Positions 4,924-39,834 of a DNA stretch of 39,834 nucleotides are shown piece after piece; positions within the stretch are counted from its first letter, which is position 1, and every line of letters starts with the position of its first letter. Made by a program: the position numbers and the translations under genes. The stretch covers positions 1 through 39,834 of IMG/VR virus record IMGVR_UViG_3300046513_000226. The stretch is one strand, 5' to 3'. The notes under the pieces are model-generated. The model saw only the letters and a program-made list of their open reading frames with translations. It had not been told where the DNA came from and ran no database searches. This stretch comes from a virus.

Positions 4924-5285
4924 GCGTCGCCCCGCATGATGGAGTCTGCCTTGGCGGCGTCCCCATGGTCGCCGCACAACAGAAGATAGTCGGCGCACCG
5001 CTTGCGCTCGGCGAGGATGGCGAGAGCGATAGCCACATGACCGTCGCCGCCAATCATGTCATAGCAGCATTTCATGGCCGCCGTCTGGACATCGGGCGGG
5101 ATGTCAACGAGCGGAGATTCCGGCACCTCTTGAATGTTAATATCGCCGGGGTCGCATGACTCCATAATCGCAACGGCTTGCGCTTCGGGGTAGCGCCCCG
5201 CCTCAGCTATATTTGCGGTATAGCCTTGTTCGTTCGGCCGGTAGAAATAGCCGCGTTTGCGGATAAGGAAGAGCTTGCCCGTCAC
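4920..5285 (-). CDS. Hypothetical early phage protein (121 aa)
   Basis: Begins at a GTG (5285) overlapping the upstream TGA as GTGA. The N-terminal section GKLFLIRKRGYFYRPNEQGYTANIAEAGRYPEAQAV has the look of small phage proteins with a short beta sheet ('YRPN..GYT...EAG.Y...EA'). The C-terminal half is helical with several Cys residues. It ends MRGDA, encoded by a degenerate copy of the operon's junction motif. No activity can be assigned. Confidence 0.65.
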   Translation of the reverse strand: MTGKLFLIRKRGYFYRPNEQGYTANIAEAGRYPEAQAVAIMESCDPGDINIQEVPESPLVDIPPDVQTAAMKCCYDMIGGDGHVAIALAILAERKRCADYLLLCGDHGDAAKADSIMRGDA

Positions 5286-5533
5286 GCGTCACCGCCTTCC
5301 GGGAAGAGCATGGCTTGCCACTCGCCGCGAGCGTGGGCGTGCTCTGGCTTCTCCATTTCAAAGGCGATGTAGCCCCATTGTGTCGGGTGCGGCTTCATGT
5401 GCTCAGCGATGGCCACCAGCACGGCCGCTTGCTCTTCGCTGGACATCGCGGCGAAGACCATGCCGAAGGTGTCCGGGTCGGCTTCGATAAACACCGGCGC
5501 GTTGGCTCTGATATCAACCTTGATCTTACTCAT
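5282..5533 (-). CDS. Hypothetical early phage protein (83 aa)
   Basis: Small acidic protein, mostly helical, with residues MSSEEQAAVLVAIAEHMKPHPTQWGYIAFEMEKP that resemble short conserved phage proteins of unknown function. The ATG at 5533 lies within the last codons of the upstream membrane-protein gene (8-base overlap), so translation is probably coupled. It ends FPEGGDA through a good copy of the 14-base junction motif. A longer in-frame start at 5665 would overlap the neighbour fully and is unlikely. Confidence 0.65.
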   Translation of the reverse strand: MSKIKVDIRANAPVFIEADPDTFGMVFAAMSSEEQAAVLVAIAEHMKPHPTQWGYIAFEMEKPEHAHARGEWQAMLFPEGGDA

Positions 5534-5720
5534 CGGCGGAATCCTTTGGGCCGATGGTCCGGTAAACATCGGCGGCCACCATGGCGGGCCACAACATGCA
5601 CGCCACGGCAAACGCGCCGCTTCCCGCTGGCGGCAACGGCTTGTTGTGGTTCTTCGAGTAGGCAACCACGATGCCGATGCCGATAGCGAAATAGATGATG
5701 AAGGCGAGTGCGTTCCTCAT
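5526..5720 (-). CDS. Small membrane protein, two predicted TM segments (64 aa)
   Basis: Residues 4-20 (ALAFIIYFAIGIGIVVA) form a clear membrane helix. A second weaker hydrophobic segment (AFAVACMLWPAMVAADVY) follows a short loop containing KNHNKPLPP. The function is unknown; small early membrane proteins of temperate phages can act in superinfection exclusion or host takeover, but nothing here decides this. ATGA overlap with the upstream gene supports the start. Confidence 0.6.
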   Translation of the reverse strand: MRNALAFIIYFAIGIGIVVAYSKNHNKPLPPAGSGAFAVACMLWPAMVAADVYRTIGPKDSADE

Positions 5721-6532
5721 GCTTCCCCGCCTTCCGAAACCTTGGCCACGAAGTACCGGGTCGGGACATCACCACGGCCGCGCTCGCACTCGATAGCGTA
5801 GCCAACGGCGCCGAGTTGCTTGCGAAGGGTTCCGGCGATGTAGCCGCGCAAGGTGTGGCGCTGCCATCCGGTGGCAGTTTCAAGCTCGGCTTGTGTGGCG
5901 CCGTCATCCCGCCGCATAAGATCAAGCACGATTTTTTTCTTACTGATCTTTTTGGCTTCAACCTTGTTGCCACGGGTGTCCCGCGTCCCGGCATTCTTCT
6001 CGCCTTCGATGCGCTGGCGGCGAAGGGCGCGCCGGGCATCGATCTCTTCGCGGGTCGATACCACCGGCGGCGGAAGTTCGGCGGCGAGCTTGGCTAGCTC
6101 CGGGCGGCTCGCGATGGTGGCGGCATCGAACACGAGTGGTTCCGCCACGGACTCAAGGTCGCCGGTGGTCAACGGCTCCACAGTATCGAACGCGGCTTTC
6201 AGGCCGGACGCATCATTGACGGGCTCGCCGGTTTCATCGTCCACCCATACGCAATGCTTGGCCACCTCTTCGGTTAGAACTGCCGCCGCTTCTTCTTCGT
6301 TGGCGACCTCGCCGGTGTCCAAGCCATGAATGACGGCAATGGCGCCGTAGCTATCGAACACCATCACGCGGAAGCTATCGCAAACCTCGCCAATGATGCG
6401 GATCGCCGGATACCATTCGCGGGCGCCGTCTTCGATTTCGACCGGCTCGATAACCTCGATATGATCCGGATGCTTCGCGGCGATGCCACGGGCGAAGCGC
6501 TTGGCGTTGCTCTTCACGTTAAAGGATTTCAT
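5717..6532 (-). CDS. DUF3489-containing early protein (271 aa)
   Basis: First gene of the second leftward block. The N-terminal about 80 residues are a mixed alpha/beta region (MKSFNVKSNAKRFARGIAAK...), the middle is acidic and low in complexity, and the C-terminus (about residues 195-265: KKKIVLDLMRRDDGATQAELETATGWQRHTLRGY...) is a DUF3489-type winged helix-turn-helix. That suggests a DNA-binding, possibly regulatory role. I chose the ATG at 6532; an extension to 6745 would cover the divergent promoter region and terS. Its promoter region carries an operator shared with terS. Confidence 0.7.
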   Translation of the reverse strand: MKSFNVKSNAKRFARGIAAKHPDHIEVIEPVEIEDGAREWYPAIRIIGEVCDSFRVMVFDSYGAIAVIHGLDTGEVANEEEAAAVLTEEVAKHCVWVDDETGEPVNDASGLKAAFDTVEPLTTGDLESVAEPLVFDAATIASRPELAKLAAELPPPVVSTREEIDARRALRRQRIEGEKNAGTRDTRGNKVEAKKISKKKIVLDLMRRDDGATQAELETATGWQRHTLRGYIAGTLRKQLGAVGYAIECERGRGDVPTRYFVAKVSEGGEA

Positions 6533-6567
6533 TCGAACCGACTCCGTTGCGGTTTGTTGAGTTTGTA

Positions 6568-6609
6568 TTTTGCAAACGCTGGTATAATGCAAACTATGCA
6601 TGATGTATA
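6568..6609 (+). promoter_or_regulatory. Divergent promoter/operator region terS vs 6532 gene
   Basis: A TATAAT box (6583-6588) faces terS, with the 15-bp operator TATGCATGATGTATA (6595-6609, one mismatch from the perfect dyad) around the expected start point. TTTTGCAAAC lies at 6568-6577. Leftward, TATACA (-35-like, within the operator) and TATACC are 17 bases apart. A repressor bound here could silence both packaging/late genes and the second early block. Confidence 0.55.
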
Positions 6610-6625
6610 GAGCAAAGATCAAACG

Positions 6626-7204
6626 ATGACGAAACGCAAACTTATAGGCGCTTCGGCCGCTGACTTCGCGGAGTCCGTGGGCGTGTCCTATGAGGCCGTC
6701 ATGAAGCGCGTAAAGGCTGGCAAGTTCTCGGCCGAAGCGATCCACGAAGATGGAAGCTTTGATGAAGAGCTAGCCCGCGTCGATTGGTTCGCGAACACGA
6801 ACCCGAACCGCATCCAGGTTAGGCCGGGCGACCTTCCTAAGCCTCGGCGCAAGAGCCCGGCGGACCACGGCAAGCAAGCCGAAGAGAAACGCGGTGAATA
6901 CATCATCAAGCTTGAGCGCGCCGAAATCGCCCTTGAGAAAGAGCGCCTTGAACTGGCGAACTTGAAGCGAACGCACATGCCCGCCGATGAGGCGAGGCGC
7001 GCGGTTAGAACGATGATGCGCATGCATCGCGACCACATGCTGAATTTCGCGAACCGCCACGGTCCCGCCATCGCTGCAGAACTCGGCGTGCCCGCCGGTC
7101 AGCTTGTTGGTTTGCTTGAGGCGCGAATCCGTGACGCGCTCAATGATGCCGCCGACCAGCCGTTGCCATTCGAGGAACCGCCGGAACTGGACGGGGCCGC
7201 ATGA
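6626..7204 (+). CDS. Terminase small subunit (lambda Nu1-like)
   Basis: 192 residues. The N-terminal helix-turn-helix (ASAADFAESVGVSYEAVMKRVKAG, residues 9-32) should bind the packaging site. It is followed by a Pro/Arg-rich linker and a coiled-coil-forming helix (KLERAEIALEKERLELANLKRTHMPADEARR), then a C-terminal domain that contacts the large subunit. This matches Nu1/gp1-type small terminases in order and length. It is directly followed by terL with a 4-base overlap (ATGA). A cos or pac site would be expected nearby but I cannot identify it. Confidence 0.85.
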   Translation: MTKRKLIGASAADFAESVGVSYEAVMKRVKAGKFSAEAIHEDGSFDEELARVDWFANTNPNRIQVRPGDLPKPRRKSPADHGKQAEEKRGEYIIKLERAEIALEKERLELANLKRTHMPADEARRAVRTMMRMHRDHMLNFANRHGPAIAAELGVPAGQLVGLLEARIRDALNDAADQPLPFEEPPELDGAA

Positions 7205-31806: not shown

Positions 31807-32967
31807 TTACCTGATAGCCACCACCTTGCCGCCGCCGGTCATAATATCGTGGACCGCCGAAGCTGTGGCGTTCGCCGCCTTTTGCGCCGGTGCCGTCATC
31901 AGGTGGGCGTAAATCTTGGTGGTTTCCGTGCTGGCGTGGGCGAGAAGGCCGCCGACTTGGTCCAGTGATACCGAGCCGGACGAAAGACCAGCGGACGCGA
32001 AGAAGCGGCGAAGGTCGTGGCGCCAAAGCGACTCCGTAATACCGGCGGATTCCATCAAGCGCTTCCACGGCTTATGAACGTTGACCATGTGCTTACCTTT
32101 CCGGCGGCCGACCACGATATGCGGGTTACCAGCGATGCGCGGGATTTCCTTAAGCTTCTCACGCGCCAGGTCCGAAAGGGTTAGTACCTTTTCCCCCGTC
32201 TTAGAGTCCGGAAGGTGGAGTCCGTCTTCCTGTACCCAATCCCACCGCGCGGCCAAAATTTCGGTGAGGCGGGCGCCAGTGAACAAGAGAAGATAGACAA
32301 GACCGGTGAAGTGGGGGTCGGTCTTTTGCATCTTCTCAATGGCGATGAGAAGGCGCGCGGCCTCATCGGCGCGGGGGTATCTTTTCCGCTTCTTCTCTTT
32401 GTTGCGCTCGATATCGACCGGGTTCGAATTCTTCGGCCGCCACTTCCATTTTTCCGCGAGTTCCATGCCTTTGGAGAGGATGTCGCAAGCTCGGTTCGCT
32501 CGCGTCTTCTTCCCTTGCTTGGTGATGTGGTCATGCATGCGCGTCACGTCTTCTTCCGTGATGTCCGCGACCGCCGTATCTTTCTTGAGGAAGGGCACGA
32601 TATGGACCCGGTAAAGGGACTCCACGTCGCGGGCCTGAGAAGGCTTGTTCTTCACCAAGGCGTGCTTCTCGTAATGATCCTTCGCGAGCATTTCGATAGT
32701 GGGTCGGTCGCCGAGCTTCATCAATTCGCCCGCCGGATCCTCGCCCTTCGCCACGCGGGCCAGCAATTCTTTAGCCCGCTCGCGGGCGGCGGTGAGCGTT
32801 AGAAATTGCTCATCGGCCAACTTCATGTTGCGTTGCTTGCCCGCCTTGGTGCGATAATAAAGATACCAAGTGGACTTTGTGGCCCCGTAGCGGAGACGTA
32901 GGCCGGGGGTCTTCGGGTCGTTCCATTGTGTTCCGGCCGGGCCGGTCTTCGAAAACTTATCGCTCAT
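31807..32967 (-). CDS. int: Tyrosine recombinase (phage integrase)
   Basis: 386 residues. The N-terminal DUF4102-like arm-binding part (GLRLRYGATKSTWYLYYRTKAGKQRNMKLA) and core-binding domain are followed by a catalytic domain with Arg233 (TGARLTEILAARWD), Lys256, His317-Arg320 (WRHDLRR), His344 (LLAHASTETT) and nucleophile Tyr353 (KIYAHL). It should insert phage DNA into a tRNA-Phe gene, whose 3' half lies 0.5 kb away at 33484. The start overlaps the stop of the secreted-protein gene (ATGA), so both are expressed from the operator-bearing promoter at 33294. Confidence 0.93.
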   Translation of the reverse strand: MSDKFSKTGPAGTQWNDPKTPGLRLRYGATKSTWYLYYRTKAGKQRNMKLADEQFLTLTAARERAKELLARVAKGEDPAGELMKLGDRPTIEMLAKDHYEKHALVKNKPSQARDVESLYRVHIVPFLKKDTAVADITEEDVTRMHDHITKQGKKTRANRACDILSKGMELAEKWKWRPKNSNPVDIERNKEKKRKRYPRADEAARLLIAIEKMQKTDPHFTGLVYLLLFTGARLTEILAARWDWVQEDGLHLPDSKTGEKVLTLSDLAREKLKEIPRIAGNPHIVVGRRKGKHMVNVHKPWKRLMESAGITESLWRHDLRRFFASAGLSSGSVSLDQVGGLLAHASTETTKIYAHLMTAPAQKAANATASAVHDIMTGGGKVVAIR

Positions 32968-33727: not shown

Positions 33728-34165
33728 CTATACGGCGAAGCGGGATAACGGTGTTGGAAGTGACCCGGCTTCGGCTTCGGCGCTAAAACCGGTTGTCCCC
33801 ACATCCACGGTTTCGGCCACCTCTTCCCGGCGCACCGTTCCCACATCCGCCACCGGGTCCAGGCGTTCAAGGTTTGCTTCATTCGGCGCGCTTGCTTCCT
33901 TTGAGGGTTCGGCTTCATGGGCGGCGCATTCCTTGGCTTTGGCCAGAAGCCCCCGGCGGGTGGATTCGACAGCGCCGAGCGCGATGGCCCGGCGTCGTGT
34001 TGCTTTGCAGATGTCATAATGAGGGGCGCCCGGCTTATCCTGAAACCACCGGCGGATGCCTAGCGCTTCCGCCACAGTGTGAAGCTCCACCAGGCTATCG
34101 GCCGCCATGTGGCACGTGACCATGCGGCCGACTTTGTAGCGTGGCGGATCCACGTAAACGGTCAT
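33728..34165 (-). CDS. DUF4031 protein with extended C-terminus (145 aa)
   Basis: The N-terminal 70 residues (MTVYVDPPRYKVGRMVTCHMAADSLVELHTVAEALGIRRWFQDKPGAPHYDICKATRRRAIALGAVES) are a clear DUF4031 domain, a small family of unknown role common in phages. The following Ala/Glu-rich tail is low in complexity and not part of the usual family length. I chose the ATG at 34165, which overlaps the previous stop (ATGA). It is the last intact gene of the operon headed by the sliding clamp unit. Confidence 0.75.
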   Translation of the reverse strand: MTVYVDPPRYKVGRMVTCHMAADSLVELHTVAEALGIRRWFQDKPGAPHYDICKATRRRAIALGAVESTRRGLLAKAKECAAHEAEPSKEASAPNEANLERLDPVADVGTVRREEVAETVDVGTTGFSAEAEAGSLPTPLSRFAV

Positions 34166-34326
34166 GGTGCCTTCTTCTCGCCGTTTATCCGCAAGAGGGC
34201 AACCACCGCCATGGCAAGGGCTACGCCGCCGGAATCGACCGGTGTTGAAAGCCCTACGCAATGCGCGGCGGCGTTTGTGCAGATGACGGCGAAAACGAAA
34301 TCAAAAGCGGTCTTAATATATGTCAT
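34162..34326 (-). CDS. Small membrane protein (54 aa)
   Basis: Starts MTYIKTAFDFVFAVICTNAAAH and ends RINGEKKAP. Two hydrophobic segments (residues about 6-20 and 33-45) suggest a hairpin membrane protein. Its start overlaps the DUF1643 stop and its stop overlaps the DUF4031 start, both as ATGA, so the reading frame is embedded in the operon and very likely translated. Function unknown. Confidence 0.6.
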   Translation of the reverse strand: MTYIKTAFDFVFAVICTNAAAHCVGLSTPVDSGGVALAMAVVALLRINGEKKAP

Positions 34327-34826
34327 GGCGCAAAATACGCCTTCGGTTGCCTCGCGGCCGCGATGTAAAGCGGGTGGCCGGGATGCCCGTCCGCCGTCAC
34401 CTTGAGCGCCGCCAAGTTGGCTTCATCGTACCGCCGGGTAAAGGCGCGGCCACGGTCACGGAAGGCGCCGTGGGTTCCCCATGCGCAGATGATGGTTTCA
34501 GCGCTCCGGACGATGGCGGCGAGGTGGTTGTCGTTGTCCGGGCCGATGGGGTCCCGATGGGAATAGAGCGCTTCCGGCTTGGTGGTCCGCAAGGCGAAGA
34601 GGTTGCCCACGATGAGGCCGCCGAAGCCCCACGCCTTTGCGAAGCCGATACACCGGCGGATAGTGGGGTCGTCTTGCTCCGCGTCCGCCGTGGACGGGTT
34701 GAGCATGATAAAGGCGACAAGCGGCTCGCCTACATCCCAATGCCTTTCGAGGCGGTAGCGGTAGGCGCCGCAAGCGGACACCACGGCGGTGGAAGATGGT
34801 TTGTTACCGAAAAGATCAAGCGTCAT
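34323..34826 (-). CDS. DUF1643 family protein
   Basis: 167 residues. The segment YRYRLERHWDVGEPLVAFIMLNPSTADAEQDDPTIRRCIGFAKAWGFGGLIVGNLFALRTTKP is the DUF1643 signature, found in phages and bacteria with unknown activity. The N-terminus MTLDLFGN resembles the bacterial sliding-clamp-binding motif QL(S/D)LF, interesting because a clamp gene lies two genes upstream. C-terminal GHPLYIAAARQPKAY is also typical. Coupled by ATGA to both neighbours. Confidence 0.85.
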   Translation of the reverse strand: MTLDLFGNKPSSTAVVSACGAYRYRLERHWDVGEPLVAFIMLNPSTADAEQDDPTIRRCIGFAKAWGFGGLIVGNLFALRTTKPEALYSHRDPIGPDNDNHLAAIVRSAETIICAWGTHGAFRDRGRAFTRRYDEANLAALKVTADGHPGHPLYIAAARQPKAYFAP

Positions 34827-35104: not shown

Positions 35105-36322
35105 TCAAATCCGCATTGGCATGAGAACGGCCAATTCACCTTCCGGCGAGTTCTTGGCTCGCATCAGGAAAGGCGAGCTTGGGGAGTCAATCCTCATTTC
35201 CAGCCAGTCCGAGCCGAACGCCTTGGCCATGGTGGCGAGGTATTTGGCATTGAAGCCGAACGGTTCGAACTTACCACCGACCTCGGCGCGAGCCTCGCCG
35301 GTCATTCGGCCTTCGCTAAACTTGGTCCCGCTGGATAGCTCAACGGCTTCGCCATCCCGTGGCGAAATCTGTAGGGCGTGGCCGTCCGACATGCCTTTGA
35401 GCATGGAAGCGAACCGGCGGACATCACCGGCATGGATTGCGGCCGTGACGGTATCCGGCGAACCCTTCGGCACCACCCGGCGCCAGTCCGGGAAGTTCCC
35501 GTCGATGAGCTTGGTCGTAATCGTCCAGTCGTCGGAAGAGAAACTAGCAAGCTGGTTATACCACCCGGCGGATCTTTGAGCATATCCGGCGAGCGGGTTG
35601 TTTGTCGCCTCTCTATAATCGCCGTGGAAACGCGCGATGCATTGAGCGGTGCCGATGATACCGGCGATGGCGTCAATCGCTTCGTTGGGCACGATAGGCC
35701 GCATGGCCCACGCTTCGAGCGAGCCCGGCGCCAACTTCGTTTCACGGGTTCCGAGCTTATGGCCATCGGTGGCGATGGCGCGAAGTGTGTCCGTGTCGAG
35801 TTCGAAGCAAACGCCATTGAGGTAATAGCGGGTTTCCTCCGTAGACACGAAGGGCGCGGTGAGGGCTAGAAGGTGGGCAAGAACGCCTTCGGGCATAGGG
35901 AAGCCACGGGCGAAGACGGTGGGCGTTTGGAGCTTCGGCGCGTCCGCCGGGTCCAAGGGGTAAAGCGCGGCGTTGTAGCGTCCGCATTTGATCGTAACGG
36001 CGGCGGCATCCCGCGCCTTCTCGAAGCTAATGGTTTCGCCGTCCGCATTGGATACGAAGGCCAAGAGCGTCTTTAATGGCAACGCCACGGCTCCCATTCC
36101 TTCGGCGGCAAGTGTGGCTTCCAGGCTCAAGTCGATGCCGTACCACGCCACCTTCATCCGGGCGCCGAGCCCGTCAAACGCAAGCACTACATAGTTCAAG
36201 ATTGGGGTGGTATTGCTTTTCTCGGCGTGCTTGGCGAGAAGCTTAAGGCGGGCCGTGAAGGCGCGGGCATCAACGGAGCCGCTGATTTCGCCCGGTCTAG
36301 AGTCGTTAGGCGTCTTTCCCAT
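35105..36322 (-). CDS. DNA polymerase III beta sliding clamp homologue
   Basis: 405 residues, somewhat longer than DnaN (about 370). Family landmarks are in order: SVDARAFTARLKLLAKHAEKSNTTPILNYVVL at the start, TRYYLNGVCFELDTDTLRAIATDGHKLGTRE in the middle domain, LIDGNFPDWRRVVPKGSP at the domain 2-3 joint, and the C-terminal FGFNAKYLATMAKAFGSDW...SSPFLMRAKNSPEGELAVLMPMRI. It should form a ring that tethers polymerase to DNA. No phage DNA polymerase is visible, so it presumably works with host DNA polymerase III or another clamp client. It lies one base after the 36324 gene behind a LexA-type promoter. Confidence 0.88.
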   Translation of the reverse strand: MGKTPNDSRPGEISGSVDARAFTARLKLLAKHAEKSNTTPILNYVVLAFDGLGARMKVAWYGIDLSLEATLAAEGMGAVALPLKTLLAFVSNADGETISFEKARDAAAVTIKCGRYNAALYPLDPADAPKLQTPTVFARGFPMPEGVLAHLLALTAPFVSTEETRYYLNGVCFELDTDTLRAIATDGHKLGTRETKLAPGSLEAWAMRPIVPNEAIDAIAGIIGTAQCIARFHGDYREATNNPLAGYAQRSAGWYNQLASFSSDDWTITTKLIDGNFPDWRRVVPKGSPDTVTAAIHAGDVRRFASMLKGMSDGHALQISPRDGEAVELSSGTKFSEGRMTGEARAEVGGKFEPFGFNAKYLATMAKAFGSDWLEMRIDSPSSPFLMRAKNSPEGELAVLMPMRI

Positions 36323-36323
36323 T

Positions 36324-36530
36324 TCAGTTGCTCCACGTGTCCAGGTATTCGCCGGTAGGGCTGATGAAGTCGGCGGCGCGGGCATCACGCCAGCGGGTTT
36401 CGAAGCCGCCACCTTCGGCCGGGCGCTCCTCTTCGATGGTGACGATGAGCTTTCCGCGCCAGCTAATGCGGTGGCCGGTTTCACCGGTGAACTTCCAACC
36501 ACCGGAGACATGAGACTTGAACAAACGCAT
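36324..36530 (-). CDS. Small protein leading the clamp operon (68 aa)
   Basis: Sequence MRLFKSHVSGGWKFTGETGHRISWRGKLIVTIEEERPAEGGGFETRWRDARAADF... looks like a single small beta sheet ('RISWRGKLIVTIEEE...ETRWRDA'). GAAGGAAGG precedes the ATG at 36530. Nothing can be said about function. It is the first gene behind the LexA-type box, and the clamp start follows its stop by one base. Confidence 0.6.
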   Translation of the reverse strand: MRLFKSHVSGGWKFTGETGHRISWRGKLIVTIEEERPAEGGGFETRWRDARAADFISPTGEYLDTWSN

Positions 36531-36805
36531 GCGATACCTTCCTTCGATGCCATAGGAATACGTTCCTACAACATCCTTATACGACTGTTGAGGTGTGGGG
36601 ACGAACCGAGAACAAATTTTTTTCGGGAACGTTGCTCGAACGTTTAACGGGTGAATACGATCAAAGATTGCATTTTGTCCATGTGACACATTGCAGAACT
36701 TTGAACGAAGTAAGTGACAACTAATTAAGTGTGTCGCTTTTGTCATAGATGGTTTCCTTTGCGACTTGAGATCGGTGGGCGGCATTCCCATTCAGCCGGG
36801 GCCTA
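36531..36805 (-). promoter_or_regulatory. Control region of the clamp operon
   Basis: A 275-base gene-free stretch with low GC. On the minus strand it holds the direct repeat GTTC-N7-GTTC (plus coordinates 36627-36641), the inverted repeat TAGGAA-TACG-TTCCTA (36552-36567), and several GTGACA/TGTCAC words (36680-36750). TATAAG (about 36581-36576) may be a -10 box. I cannot fix the -35. Confidence 0.45.
36627..36641 (-). promoter_or_regulatory. LexA-type box (GTTC-N7-GTTC)
   Basis: Minus strand GTTCGAGCAACGTTC is an exact direct repeat GTTC-N7-GTTC, the known LexA-binding form in alphaproteobacteria. It lies about 100 bases before the first gene of the clamp operon, so host SOS induction could switch this operon on. 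Confidence 0.55.
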
Positions 36806-37507
36806 TCAAGCTGGCGCCTCGCGTTTCTTCGACCGAATTCCGGCGGAAAGTGCTTCTTGCCAAGCGGTGTCGCGGTCTATGATGTCCGTGACGGCATCAA
36901 ACTCGCGTTGCATTTGGTCCAACGTCATGCCCGCCAGGTCGGCGGCAAACTCGCGTATAGCGCTAGCGTCGGCAAGTTCTTGCGGGTTGATGCACGGCGC
37001 GTCTTTCCCGCCTTCGAACACGTATTCTTTCCAATGCGTCCAGCACCAACGGCCGTCGCGGTGTTTCAGGAAGCCCCAACGGCGCCCAATTCCACCGCGC
37101 CACACGATTGTGATTATCTTCCTATTGGTGCTGACGAAGTGACCGGTGACGCCACTAGGCCACTTATGTGAATCCCATCGGCCAAGAACGCGGTGGCAAT
37201 GCTCCGCCGGGCGATAGGTGAGGCGGAAGGCACGGACGATTTGGCGAGTTATCGAGAAGCCGCCAAGGCCGTCCGGTGTGGCCACTTCTTCCACGTATGG
37301 CGTGAGCGGGAACGTCCAGAAATCCCACGGGTGGTCGTGGCAGTCCGGATCCGCATCGCCACGGTGGAAGATGTGGAATCGGAGACGGCCAAGCCATGCG
37401 CGTGTCATGTAAGGGGTGTCGTGATGGCCTTCGGCGCCATAGATGGTGTGGAAGCCGAAGAGGCCGGTGGCAGATTTATGCGGCTTGTTCTTTGCTGGTG
37501 CCGTCAT
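36806..37507 (-). CDS. Cupin-like conserved phage protein (233 aa)
   Basis: The stretch RLRFHIFHRGDADPDCHDHPWDFWTFPLTPYVEEV (residues 41-75) followed by YRPAEHCHRVLGRWD (99-113) has the histidine spacing of a cupin metal site (HDH...E...H). It occurs, from memory, in many phages as an uncharacterised protein. Many Trp and His residues and a C-terminal helical domain (AIREFAADLAGMTLDQMQREFDAV) complete it. Whether it is an oxygenase or a binding protein is unknown. ATGA overlap with the upstream gene. Confidence 0.65.
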   Translation of the reverse strand: MTAPAKNKPHKSATGLFGFHTIYGAEGHHDTPYMTRAWLGRLRFHIFHRGDADPDCHDHPWDFWTFPLTPYVEEVATPDGLGGFSITRQIVRAFRLTYRPAEHCHRVLGRWDSHKWPSGVTGHFVSTNRKIITIVWRGGIGRRWGFLKHRDGRWCWTHWKEYVFEGGKDAPCINPQELADASAIREFAADLAGMTLDQMQREFDAVTDIIDRDTAWQEALSAGIRSKKREAPA

Positions 37508-37983
37508 GCGGCTACTTCCTTCTTTGGCTGGTTACGCCGCATCACCACCCGAAACCCGAAGGACTCGACGAGGCTGACAAAACGGCTAAGTGTGGGGTCG
37601 CGGTGGCGCTTGAGCCACGAATAGAAAGAGTTCGATGCCACCGAAGTGGTGGCCCGCAATTCCTTCGTGGAAAGCTTTTCGTCACGGCGGGCTTGGTCGA
37701 TTGCCGCCATGGCTATGCTTATGTTGTGCAGACTGTAGACGGGATGCGGCGGCGTGGTGCCGACCATCACGATTTCGAAGCCAAGGGTTTGGGCCACGGC
37801 CACAAGGTTCGCCAGTTGCGGCGAGCGTCCAGCGCTCCGCCAGGCATAGAAGGAGTTCACGGAAACACCGGACTTCTCTTCCATGTCGCCGAGTTCCATG
37901 CCGAGCAAAACGCGCTCTTTGGAAAGGGCGTTCATTGCGGTGCGCTGGTCGGCAAGATCATATTCGCCTTCGTTGAGTGTCAT
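37504..37983 (-). CDS. Double helix-turn-helix regulator (159 aa)
   Basis: Contains two similar HTH units in tandem. Repeat 1 (about 22-73): LLGMELGDMEEKSGVSVNSFYAWRSAGRSPQLANLVAVAQTLGFEIVM. Repeat 2 (about 99-149): DEKLSTKELRATTSVASNSFYSWLKRHRDPTLSRFVSLVESFGFRVVM. Each has an XRE-type fold with the shared SFY.W recognition section and a GF(E/R)(I/V)VM end. A single chain with two HTH domains could bind a two-site operator. Phage regulator or replication factor. I chose ATG 37983; upstream starts overlap the HNH gene. Confidence 0.7.
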   Translation of the reverse strand: MTLNEGEYDLADQRTAMNALSKERVLLGMELGDMEEKSGVSVNSFYAWRSAGRSPQLANLVAVAQTLGFEIVMVGTTPPHPVYSLHNISIAMAAIDQARRDEKLSTKELRATTSVASNSFYSWLKRHRDPTLSRFVSLVESFGFRVVMRRNQPKKEVAA

Positions 37984-38486
37984 GCCGCGCGCTCCATCCG
38001 CATCCGGTCGCGCAACCTGATTTTTTCCGGCGCCGACAAGTTTCCTGCGATTTGATTGCATTCGTGGTGGGCCAAGAACCTGTTGGCGAGGTGGTCCGGG
38101 CCGCCGTGGGCAATACAAACTAGGTGCTCTGTGGTCGCCTCATAGGCTGGCGGAACTGGCGTTCCGGGCGGCGCCACGACCTCGCCGCAAAAGAAGCATT
38201 CGGAGCCGTCACGCTTCACAAGGGCGCCGTATAGCTGGCGGAGTTTCGAGTTTGAGCGCTTGCGGCGGGTCGCTGCGAGCGCAATGGAACCGTTGGCGTT
38301 GTAGACGCGGACGATTTCGAGAAGTGCAACGGGCCACCTTTGGGCGCCGTTGCGGTTCTTGTGCACGATGTGCGTTCCCGTGCTGGTGCGGACCCGTAGC
38401 ACCTCCCATTCGGAAGTCGGTTCCAACACCTCGGCACCGTTTTCGGTAAGCCACACCGCGAAGTGATCAAGGTCGCGGACGGTCAT
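37980..38486 (-). CDS. HNH endonuclease-like protein
   Basis: 168 residues. The C-terminal part has an HNH nuclease with a zinc knuckle: CFFC (residues 97-100), TEHLVCIAHGG (Glu120-His121), NRFLAHHECNQIAG (Asn135, His140/141, Cys143). The N-terminal 60 residues form a small separate alpha/beta domain. It may nick DNA during replication, recombination or packaging. In many phages HNH proteins assist terminase, but this one lies with the Topo VI-A-like gene rather than near terL. Confidence 0.8.
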   Translation of the reverse strand: MTVRDLDHFAVWLTENGAEVLEPTSEWEVLRVRTSTGTHIVHKNRNGAQRWPVALLEIVRVYNANGSIALAATRRKRSNSKLRQLYGALVKRDGSECFFCGEVVAPPGTPVPPAYEATTEHLVCIAHGGPDHLANRFLAHHECNQIAGNLSAPEKIRLRDRMRMERAA

Positions 38487-38698
38487 ACGATTAGCCCGAT
38501 GTCTTTGGCGACCTCGCGGGACATCGTGAATTCGTAGACCGTGGCGGCATCGCAGATGGGCGAGAAGCCAACGGGCTCGAAGTCAACATTGGCCAACGGG
38601 ATAATGACCGGGCGGGCGGGAAGGCCGTGGGAAACCACGACCGCCCTTTCGTGCGCCTCAAGGATAGGGGCGCGGATGGTGACGAAAGGCAGGACCAT
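38483..38698 (-). CDS. Hypothetical protein linked to Topo VI-A-like gene (71 aa)
   Basis: Small protein with mainly beta-strand character (MVLPFVTIRAPILEAHERAVVVSHGLPARPVIIPLANVDFEPVGFSPI...), no recognised family. Its ATG overlaps the stop of the Topo VI-A-like gene (TAATG) and its own stop overlaps the HNH start, so it is tightly coupled to both. It could be an accessory subunit of either. Confidence 0.55.
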   Translation of the reverse strand: MVLPFVTIRAPILEAHERAVVVSHGLPARPVIIPLANVDFEPVGFSPICDAATVYEFTMSREVAKDIGLIV

Positions 38699-39648
38699 TA
38701 TTCCATACCTCTCGCGAACGCGACCACGTCATCGAACTGAGAAGGATCAAGTCTCAAGATGCCTTCAAGGTCGGGCCAATTGTCCGACGTCCGTTGAAGA
38801 AGCTCTTTCCGTTCCTCTTCTTCGGTCTTGGCCGAATTCCATGCGTCACGATCAAGGTTTTCCGTAATGGCGGCTTCGATGAGCGCGTCGATAACGGTAG
38901 GTTCAAGCGCGTCCAGTTCCCACGAGGACTCGCCGAATTCTTCGATGTATCCGGCGGCACGGGAGTCCGTTTCCTTCGCCGGGTTCGGCGGCGGGTCGTA
39001 TTGCTCGATTTGGTCCATGTTGAGCGCCAGGCGCTTAACGGTCACGCCGTACCGGGCGAACATGGCGAGCCGGTCCCGGTTATCTCGCGTCATGTCCATG
39101 CCAGAAGGGTCGTGGTCGCCAAGGTGAAGCACGATTGGTCGGATGCCTTGCGCTATCAGGCGCGCGAACCGCTTCCCGGCGCTGTATTGTTCCGATTGGG
39201 AAGAGTAGCCACGGCATGCGAAGTAATCGACCCGCCACCGCGTGCACACCGGTTGAACCACGCCGACCAGTGCGTCTTTCTCAATCCAGACTTCGGGCCG
39301 GAATGATTGGGTTTTCTCCCACAAGTCTTCTCGGTAGCTGTGAAGCGCGGAGTTGATGACATCGGAAGGTGTTTCCCAAGTCGGAACGCCGCGAAGATTG
39401 CGGGTCCGGTCTTCGATGGAATCCCAATCGATTTGACCAGCGAGGCGGGCGTCGTTGATGACGGAGCCAAGGCGCTTATATTCGCTTTGTTTATTCGGAA
39501 TCAGGTCGCGCGAAACGAACTGATAGTAGAGTTGGCGCAAGGTGAGCTTGAACCCTTGGCGCTGGTAGGCGGAAATAATCGCGTTCGCTTGTTCGATGAT
39601 CTTTACCGAAGACCGATTGAACCGCTTGGTAATAAACTTTTCCCTCAT
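38698..39648 (-). CDS. Spo11/Topo VI-A-like protein (Mini-A-like)
   Basis: 316 residues carrying, in order, the two domains of topoisomerase VI subunit A/Spo11. Residues about 33-90 look like the winged-helix 5Y-CAP domain with FKLTLRQLYYQFVSR, where Tyr41/Tyr42 sit at the place of the catalytic tyrosine (RDIYY in Spo11). A Toprim domain follows with EVWIEKDALVGVVQ (Glu123, the VEKDA box), DYFACRGYSSQSE (GYP/S box) and LHLGDHDPSGMDM (Asp178, Asp180). It may cut or nick DNA with a 5' covalent link. No B subunit with a GHKL ATPase is seen, as in stand-alone phage and mobile-element relatives. Confidence 0.8.
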   Translation of the reverse strand: MREKFITKRFNRSSVKIIEQANAIISAYQRQGFKLTLRQLYYQFVSRDLIPNKQSEYKRLGSVINDARLAGQIDWDSIEDRTRNLRGVPTWETPSDVINSALHSYREDLWEKTQSFRPEVWIEKDALVGVVQPVCTRWRVDYFACRGYSSQSEQYSAGKRFARLIAQGIRPIVLHLGDHDPSGMDMTRDNRDRLAMFARYGVTVKRLALNMDQIEQYDPPPNPAKETDSRAAGYIEEFGESSWELDALEPTVIDALIEAAITENLDRDAWNSAKTEEEERKELLQRTSDNWPDLEGILRLDPSQFDDVVAFARGME

Positions 39649-39700: not shown

Positions 39701-39834
39701 TTATGCGGTGGGGCGGGTTTGCGAACGCACGTTGCCTTCTTCGAAAGCCTTCAAATCGGTTTCCCGATAGACGACGCGGCCGCCTAGCTTGACGTAAGAA
39801 GGGCCTTTGCCTTGGCAGCGCCAACGCGCGAGGG
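39701..39834 (-). CDS. AlpA/MerR-type HTH protein, 5' end cut by window
   Basis: The last 43 codons of a small DNA-binding protein: LARWRCQGKGPSYVKLGGRVVYRETDLKAFEEGNVRSQTRPTA. The RW..G.GP.YVKLG.RV.YR..DL..F pattern is the second half of an excisionase/AlpA-type helix-turn-helix. The first helix pair is outside the window. This class includes phage excisionases (Xis) and late regulators; a Xis role is possible given the integrase. On a circular molecule its 5' part would lie at 1-60 on the minus strand. Confidence 0.75.
   Translation of the reverse strand, partial: LARWRCQGKGPSYVKLGGRVVYRETDLKAFEEGNVRSQTRPTA

Follow-up and report, generated by a model that had tools for sequence, protein, structure and literature searches.

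Does a stand-alone protein related to the A subunit of topoisomerase VI (Topo VI) serve a temperate phage as a topoisomerase, as a nuclease, or as a maker of programmed DNA breaks? This question is raised by the window analyzed here, i.e., the whole stretch of 39,834 nucleotides of IMG/VR virus record IMGVR_UViG_3300046513_000226. Near its right end, it harbors an open reading frame (ORF) on the reverse strand that starts with ATG, encodes 316 amino acids, and contains no internal stop codons (Table 1). A preliminary description made from the DNA letters had taken the product for a Spo11/Topo VI-A-like protein in a temperate phage. Comparison with PHROGs assigned residues 1–297 to phrog_6247, annotated as "DNA topoisomerase"; searches against Pfam and NCBIfam revealed no model above the cut-off. 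By tblastn, the protein shared 43.1% identity over 94% coverage with Mini-A of Pseudomonas phage NP1, the phage chosen to illustrate this family in PMC7614492. In addition, an archaeal plasmid gene annotated as Topo Mini-A revealed 28% identity over 83%. By these matches, the protein is identified as Mini-A, one of the stand-alone proteins of the Topo VI-A/Spo11 type that viruses and plasmids carry, in line with the preliminary description, and the integrase gene of the window fits the temperate lifestyle proposed there. The family is already published, reportedly by Takahashi et al. in 2020, and the gene of the window is a further member.

Searches with tblastn found Mini-A in at least 74 phage records, in 68 of which a single place accounted for 80% or more of the query. 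Further matches came from 67 contigs of IMG/VR and from more than 200 bacterial and archaeal genome stretches. The nearest relatives were genome matches in Neorhizobium (83%), Ensifer (77%), and Brucella tritici and Mesorhizobium (75%). Since rhizobial genomes hold the closest relatives, the phage probably infects a bacterium of the Hyphomicrobiales. A comparison with four relatives gave dN values of 0.13–0.19, with dS above 1 or saturated, and a decayed gene was rejected based on a dN/dS of about 0.1. Two contigs from metagenome-assembled genomes labeled Methanimicrococcus and Nanoarchaeota (L153 and L117) also carried a Mini-A 46–56% identical to the phage protein, which reflects either cross-domain viruses or binning errors.

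Table 1. Features of the window (39,834 nucleotides) discussed in the text, with the evidence for each.
Feature	Position	Strand	Evidence
HTH_17 (AlpA/excisionase-like) gene, 3' end, cut by the contig end	39701..39834	-	57.5% to the HTH_17 protein of contig L002
Mini-A gene, 316 aa	38698..39648	-	translation; phrog_6247, E 9.6e-114; AlphaFold2 model, pLDDT 92.5; Toprim domain vs 1D3Y
R38-Q-L-Y-Y42 box	39523..39537	-	R38 and Y42 invariant (152/152); profile alignment onto the TLREIYY box of Topo VI-A
I-E123-K, Toprim glutamate, equivalent of M. mazei E202	39277..39285	-	conservation and alignment
G-D178-H-D180-P-S-G, Toprim DxD, equivalents of M. mazei D254/D256	39100..39120	-	conservation and alignment
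W243-E244-L-D-A247, invariant motif	38908..38922	-	conservation; shared E-x-x-A motif
71-aa ORF, one-base overlap with the Mini-A stop, kept in most relatives	38483..38698	-	
HNH endonuclease-like gene	37980..38486	-	PF01844, 21.5 bits (cut-off 21.4); phrog_7785, E 7.9e-17
Double-HTH gene, start uncertain	37504..38118	-	PF01381 and PHROG regulator matches, both halves
DnaN-like sliding clamp	35105..36553	-	PF02767, E 5.5e-14; phrog_947, E 3.1e-46
Integrase, temperate lifestyle	31807..32967	-	phrog_1, E 4.8e-46

All Topo VI-A landmarks listed in the preliminary description were recovered from the ORF, namely R38-Q-L-Y-Y42, I-E123-K-D-A, G147-Y-S-S, and G-D178-H-D180-P-S-G. Across 152–153 homologs, R38, Y42, G147, S150, D178, H179, D180, P181, S182, G183, K225, D228, R230, W243, E244, and D246 were invariant, E123 and K124 displayed a single gap each, and G177 and Y148 varied once each. 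Because of this conservation, the landmarks are, judged from the alignment, not chance matches. Both Tyr41 and Tyr42 had been put forward as catalytic candidates; Tyr41 was replaced by F or H in 8 of the 152 homologs, so that only Tyr42, present in every one of them, stands as the presumed 5'-tyrosyl nucleophile. The working residues of Methanosarcina mazei Top6A are Y106, R102, E202, D254, D256, and E342 (PMC13040014), and the same residues were found in Topo VI-A sequence L159 at positions 97, 93, 193, 245, 247, and 333, i.e., with a constant offset of 9. The Mini-A counterparts of the first five are Y42, R38, E123, D178, and D180, while E244 is likely the counterpart of the clasp residue E342, based on the E-x-x-A motif and the structure-aligned range. 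Top6A further possesses an N-terminal latch (residues 44–67), which is required for supercoil relaxation (PMC13040014). The 41 residues ahead of the Mini-A tyrosine are too few for such a segment.

The AlphaFold2 model displayed an N-terminal winged-helix-like domain (about residues 10–80) followed by a Toprim domain (about residues 115–264). Foldseek ranked Topo VI-A (1D3Y) at the top (E 5.6e-5) with a whole-chain TM of just 0.35, a low value that is probably due to the two domains being turned relative to each other. Structure alignment (VIA-align) of the Toprim domain resulted in a Z of 11.0 with 1D3Y (2.9 Å, 139 residues), 10.4 and 10.3 with MksG/JetD, and 8.6–8.8 with Spo11 (8URQ, 8URU). 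As Z differences within 1 were counted as ties, Topo VI-A and MksG/JetD cannot be told apart by the Toprim fold alone; it is the tyrosine box that distinguishes them. The winged-helix domain on its own retrieved generic winged helices and no Topo VI-A in the fold search. At the profile level, 146 Mini-A sequences aligned LTLRQLYYQ with STLREIYYI of archaeal Topo VI-A at a modest E of 0.022, compared with an E of 0.34 for Topo VI-B as negative control. The Pfam model TP6A_N, searched at E<=1 and thus below the family cut-off, had the Mini-A coordinates as its sole match in three of seven genomes, and PDB sequence searches (phmmer/profile) with the single protein and with a 49-sequence profile gave no Topo VI-A match. 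The preliminary description had named an unrelated Toprim family or a non-conserved tyrosine as grounds against its reading; neither was found, with Topo VI-A being the best fold match and Tyr42 invariant. An unrelated Toprim protein was rejected based on fold and tyrosine box, and an OLD/Gabija nuclease was rejected since no ABC ATPase domain was found.

Compared with known systems, Mini-A of NP1 is similar in its catalytic residues, in its stand-alone nature, and in its location in a DNA-metabolism region. NP1 differs in being a 58.6-kb phage in which Mini-A adjoins a Sak4-like protein, whereas the phage of the window carries an integrase gene and its relatives possess YqaJ and RecT genes upstream. 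The archaeal Topo VI A subunit (1D3Y, 2Q2E, 9O0G) is matched in the Toprim fold (Z 9.5–11) and in the Tyr, Arg-4, Glu, and DxD residues; in contrast to it, Mini-A has neither a B subunit nor the latch segment, and no overall sequence similarity was detected in the PDB searches (phmmer/profile). Spo11 shares the Toprim fold and the 5'-tyrosyl break proposed here for Mini-A, but is eukaryotic and depends on a different company of partners, TOP6BL or Rec102/104 and many others.

Since the preliminary description had stated that there is no B subunit, the GHKL ATPase domain (HATPase_c, PF02518) was searched for. It was detected in none of 48 Mini-A phage records, many of which are fragments and which do not include the window, while all 14 control genomes were positive, and the 316-aa protein of the window itself revealed no GHKL domain either. 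These results bear on the reading of Mini-A as a true type IIB topoisomerase, which would act on phage DNA by relaxation or decatenation, either together with an ATPase subunit from the host or, in the case of relaxation, independently of ATP. PHROGs and many records do label Mini-A as DNA topoisomerase, and one Topo VIII relaxed DNA without ATP (PMC7614492). Moreover, the invariant R38 and E244 match the R102–E342 clasp of Topo VI that restrains cleavage (PMC13040014), as expected of a resealing enzyme. Nevertheless, with the GHKL gene missing from all 48 records, the tyrosine located at position 42 instead of 106 as in M. mazei and hence no latch segment, and gyrase already owned by the bacterial hosts, we regard a topoisomerase as unlikely.

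The gene was previously described as heading a leftward operon with HNH and double-HTH genes in a phage without visible replication genes. Both neighbors are indeed present, but the operon need not begin with Mini-A: an HTH_17 gene located upstream is cut by the end of the contig, and five rhizobial relatives carry YqaJ exonuclease, RecT, and HTH_17 genes at this place. The order YqaJ, RecT, HTH_17, and Mini-A was found in loci from Neorhizobium, Ensifer, Brucella tritici, and Mesorhizobium and in contig L002 (PF12728 E 1.2e-9 for the HTH_17 protein of L002). Downstream, most of these loci harbor the 71-aa ORF and the double-HTH gene, while the HNH gene is absent from some; it had no match in relatives L003, L004, L076, and L078. 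The claim on replication genes did not hold either, as the window itself encodes a DnaN-like clamp, the true start of which probably lies further in, and the relatives encode a primase-helicase, a DEAD helicase, YqaJ, and RecT. From 3.7 kb up to Mini-A, the window is collinear with a 60.6-kb relative (G001), which, together with G002, extends beyond it in an arm encoding a 947-aa primase-helicase (Toprim by Pfam, helicase part by reading of the sequence), a VRR-NUC-like gene (likewise named by reading), the DEAD helicase, and a methyltransferase, none of which occurs in the window. Thus, both the seeming lack of replication genes and the seeming head of the operon result from the cut at position 39834.

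Further genes of this region are worth mentioning. The clamp is kept in most rhizobial relatives; in L075, its gene is located further away and on the opposite strand. Positions 34323–34826 (DUF1643) and 33728–34261 (DUF4031) hold conserved genes of the same phage operon, and positions 36806–37507 revealed a match to phrog_4786, "cysteine dioxygenase" (E 1.2e-36), inside this DNA-metabolism operon.

The operon also bears on a use of Mini-A as a nuclease in other contexts, namely for breakage of host or rival DNA, for processing of concatemers for packaging, or for counter-defence. Its Toprim domain also resembles MksG (Z 10.4) and JetD (Z 10.3), which are anti-plasmid nucleases; this resemblance and the HNH gene two genes downstream would agree with such a role. 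However, the 5Y-CAP-like domain of MksG lacks the tyrosine (PMC10123090), while all Mini-A homologs keep it. The MksG/JetD proteins of Wadjet operate with an SMC complex, and a scan of ten genes of the window, Mini-A and its neighbors, identified no SMC-like family (SMC-type MksBEF/JetABC). As the operon is furthermore one of DNA metabolism and distant from the terminase, we consider a nuclease of this kind very unlikely.

In other known phages, Mini-A was likewise found next to genes of DNA metabolism, such as those for DNA polymerase, ligase, ThyX, Sak4, a Cas4-type exonuclease, and reductases, with the exception of Curtobacterium phage Commonplace. Clustering of the ORFs around Mini-A showed that, apart from Mini-A itself and overlapping antisense ORFs, the commonest neighbor family occurred in only 13 of 61 groups, so that Mini-A appears to have no fixed partner. 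The same follows from five recombination families, each of which was found in a minority of the 48 records (RecT in 5, YqaJ in 2, ERF in 1, AAA_24 in 11 over the cut-off, and PDDEXK_1 in 8), with more than half of the records lacking any above-cut-off match to these five. Close arrangements were ERF/YqaJ beside Mini-A in L206, a PDDEXK-AAA_24 fusion in L201, AAA_24 (Sak4-type) within 260 bp of Mini-A in NP1 and three other records, and PDDEXK_1 at a distance of 30 bp in one record. Among the 20 records that carried such a recombination gene (G036 was omitted as a near-copy of G032), it was located within 1.5 kb of Mini-A in eight, compared with 1.7 expected under random placement (P 1.5e-4), a null that ignores clustering of early genes. 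Because of this, and since DNA polymerase A was also located within 3 kb of Mini-A in five of the eight records compared, these distances point to membership in a module, not to a specific pairing.

A different setting was found in Paenibacillus durus. Its plasmid NZ_CP009289.1 (L192), a circular element of 15,151 bp, codes for many small membrane proteins along with a Zot-type ATPase, a make-up suggestive of a filamentous phage, and carries a Mini-A gene at 5115–6008 whose product is 51.5% identical to that of the window. The sister plasmid pPpR313 (L193) shares about 14 genes with it (Zot 70%) and harbors, between the Zot module and a DUF3967 gene, a gene for a 434-aa "replication initiation protein" (46% to the Rep of Bacillus siamensis). 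Further plasmids of Bacillales carry relatives of this Rep, and a plasmid of 1.8 kb revealed a weak match. In P. durus, Mini-A occupies the interval in which pPpR313 carries this Rep gene, and no homolog of the Reps tested was found in P. durus. Other members of the plasmid group possess Rep_1 or Rep_trans initiators; thus, Rep seems to be an exchangeable part of the group, and the P. durus element points to Mini-A as a possible substitute for a replication initiator. The structural genes of this element were sought in the other Mini-A loci and not found there, and the replacement is therefore a case of one element.

The preliminary description had proposed that Mini-A may initiate or process replication by a programmed strand break. 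As a replication initiator, Mini-A would cut at the origin of the phage, and the resulting 3' end would serve as primer. The argument from missing replication genes fell with the genes named above, while the recombination-gene neighbors in several lineages and the P. durus Rep slot lend the idea of initiation independent, indirect support. An 8.8-kb archaeal plasmid in which Mini-A is the sole named enzyme would also agree with an initiator. On the other hand, initiation in the phage of the window may lie elsewhere, as its relatives encode a primase-helicase and a helicase. Besides, just after Mini-A, the P. durus element revealed a DnaA box (6639) as well as three copies of GGATACA spaced 21 bp apart (6853, 6874, 6895), so that an unrecognized theta-type initiator is possible. 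Altogether, a role as the origin-cutting initiator of the phage seems improbable to us.

Two observations on plasmids were made besides. In the archaeal plasmid P-7H_11 (LC711082.1, L191), with Mini-A at 5801–6721, an exact tandem duplication of 127 bp (6651–6904) begins within the 3' end of the gene. More distant Mini-A proteins (25–30% identity) were encoded by many plasmids of Streptomyces and Kitasatospora, including linear ones (L189, L190, L253, L254), and L253 and L254 carried a helicase-associated gene close to Mini-A. On these plasmids, Mini-A tended to be located toward the ends: the mean relative distance to the nearer end was 0.17 versus 0.25 for 34 plasmids (KS P 0.0016, uncorrected for relatedness and topology), so a telomere-related role on these plasmids is worth a look.

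The literature searched contains no biochemical or genetic result for any Mini-A, and the function is given as unknown in PMC8084294. Mouse SPO11 breaks DNA without partners by dimerizing (PMC11922746), and A-type subunits can thus cut alone. We infer that Mini-A is a Tyr42-linked break-maker that serves the recombination and replication module of the phage, a reading that we prefer with moderate confidence. Mini-A would act as a homodimer with a hybrid active site, to which one subunit would contribute Tyr42 from its winged-helix domain and its partner the metal site (E123/D178/D180) of the Toprim domain. It would cut the DNA and remain attached to the 5' ends and, without an ATPase subunit, would not perform ATP-driven strand passage. 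The break would then feed the module of YqaJ exonuclease, RecT annealing protein, clamp, and primase-helicase, and might provide the ends or the primer for recombination-dependent copying.

A wider reading, possible though doubtful, would make Mini-A a replication and recombination initiator of mobile elements in general. As a Spo11-type dimer it would cut the origin and be able to replace Rep, and in tailed phages it would supply the break for the phage exonuclease and annealing protein. Spo11 breaks DNA to start meiotic recombination, and it has its A-subunit module in common with Mini-A; if the wider reading is true, recombination started by Spo11 would have a counterpart in the viruses of prokaryotes. 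The phages with exonuclease and annealing protein and the 15-kb replicon with Mini-A in its Rep slot offer small, tractable settings for asking whether Spo11-type breaks start viral recombination or replication.
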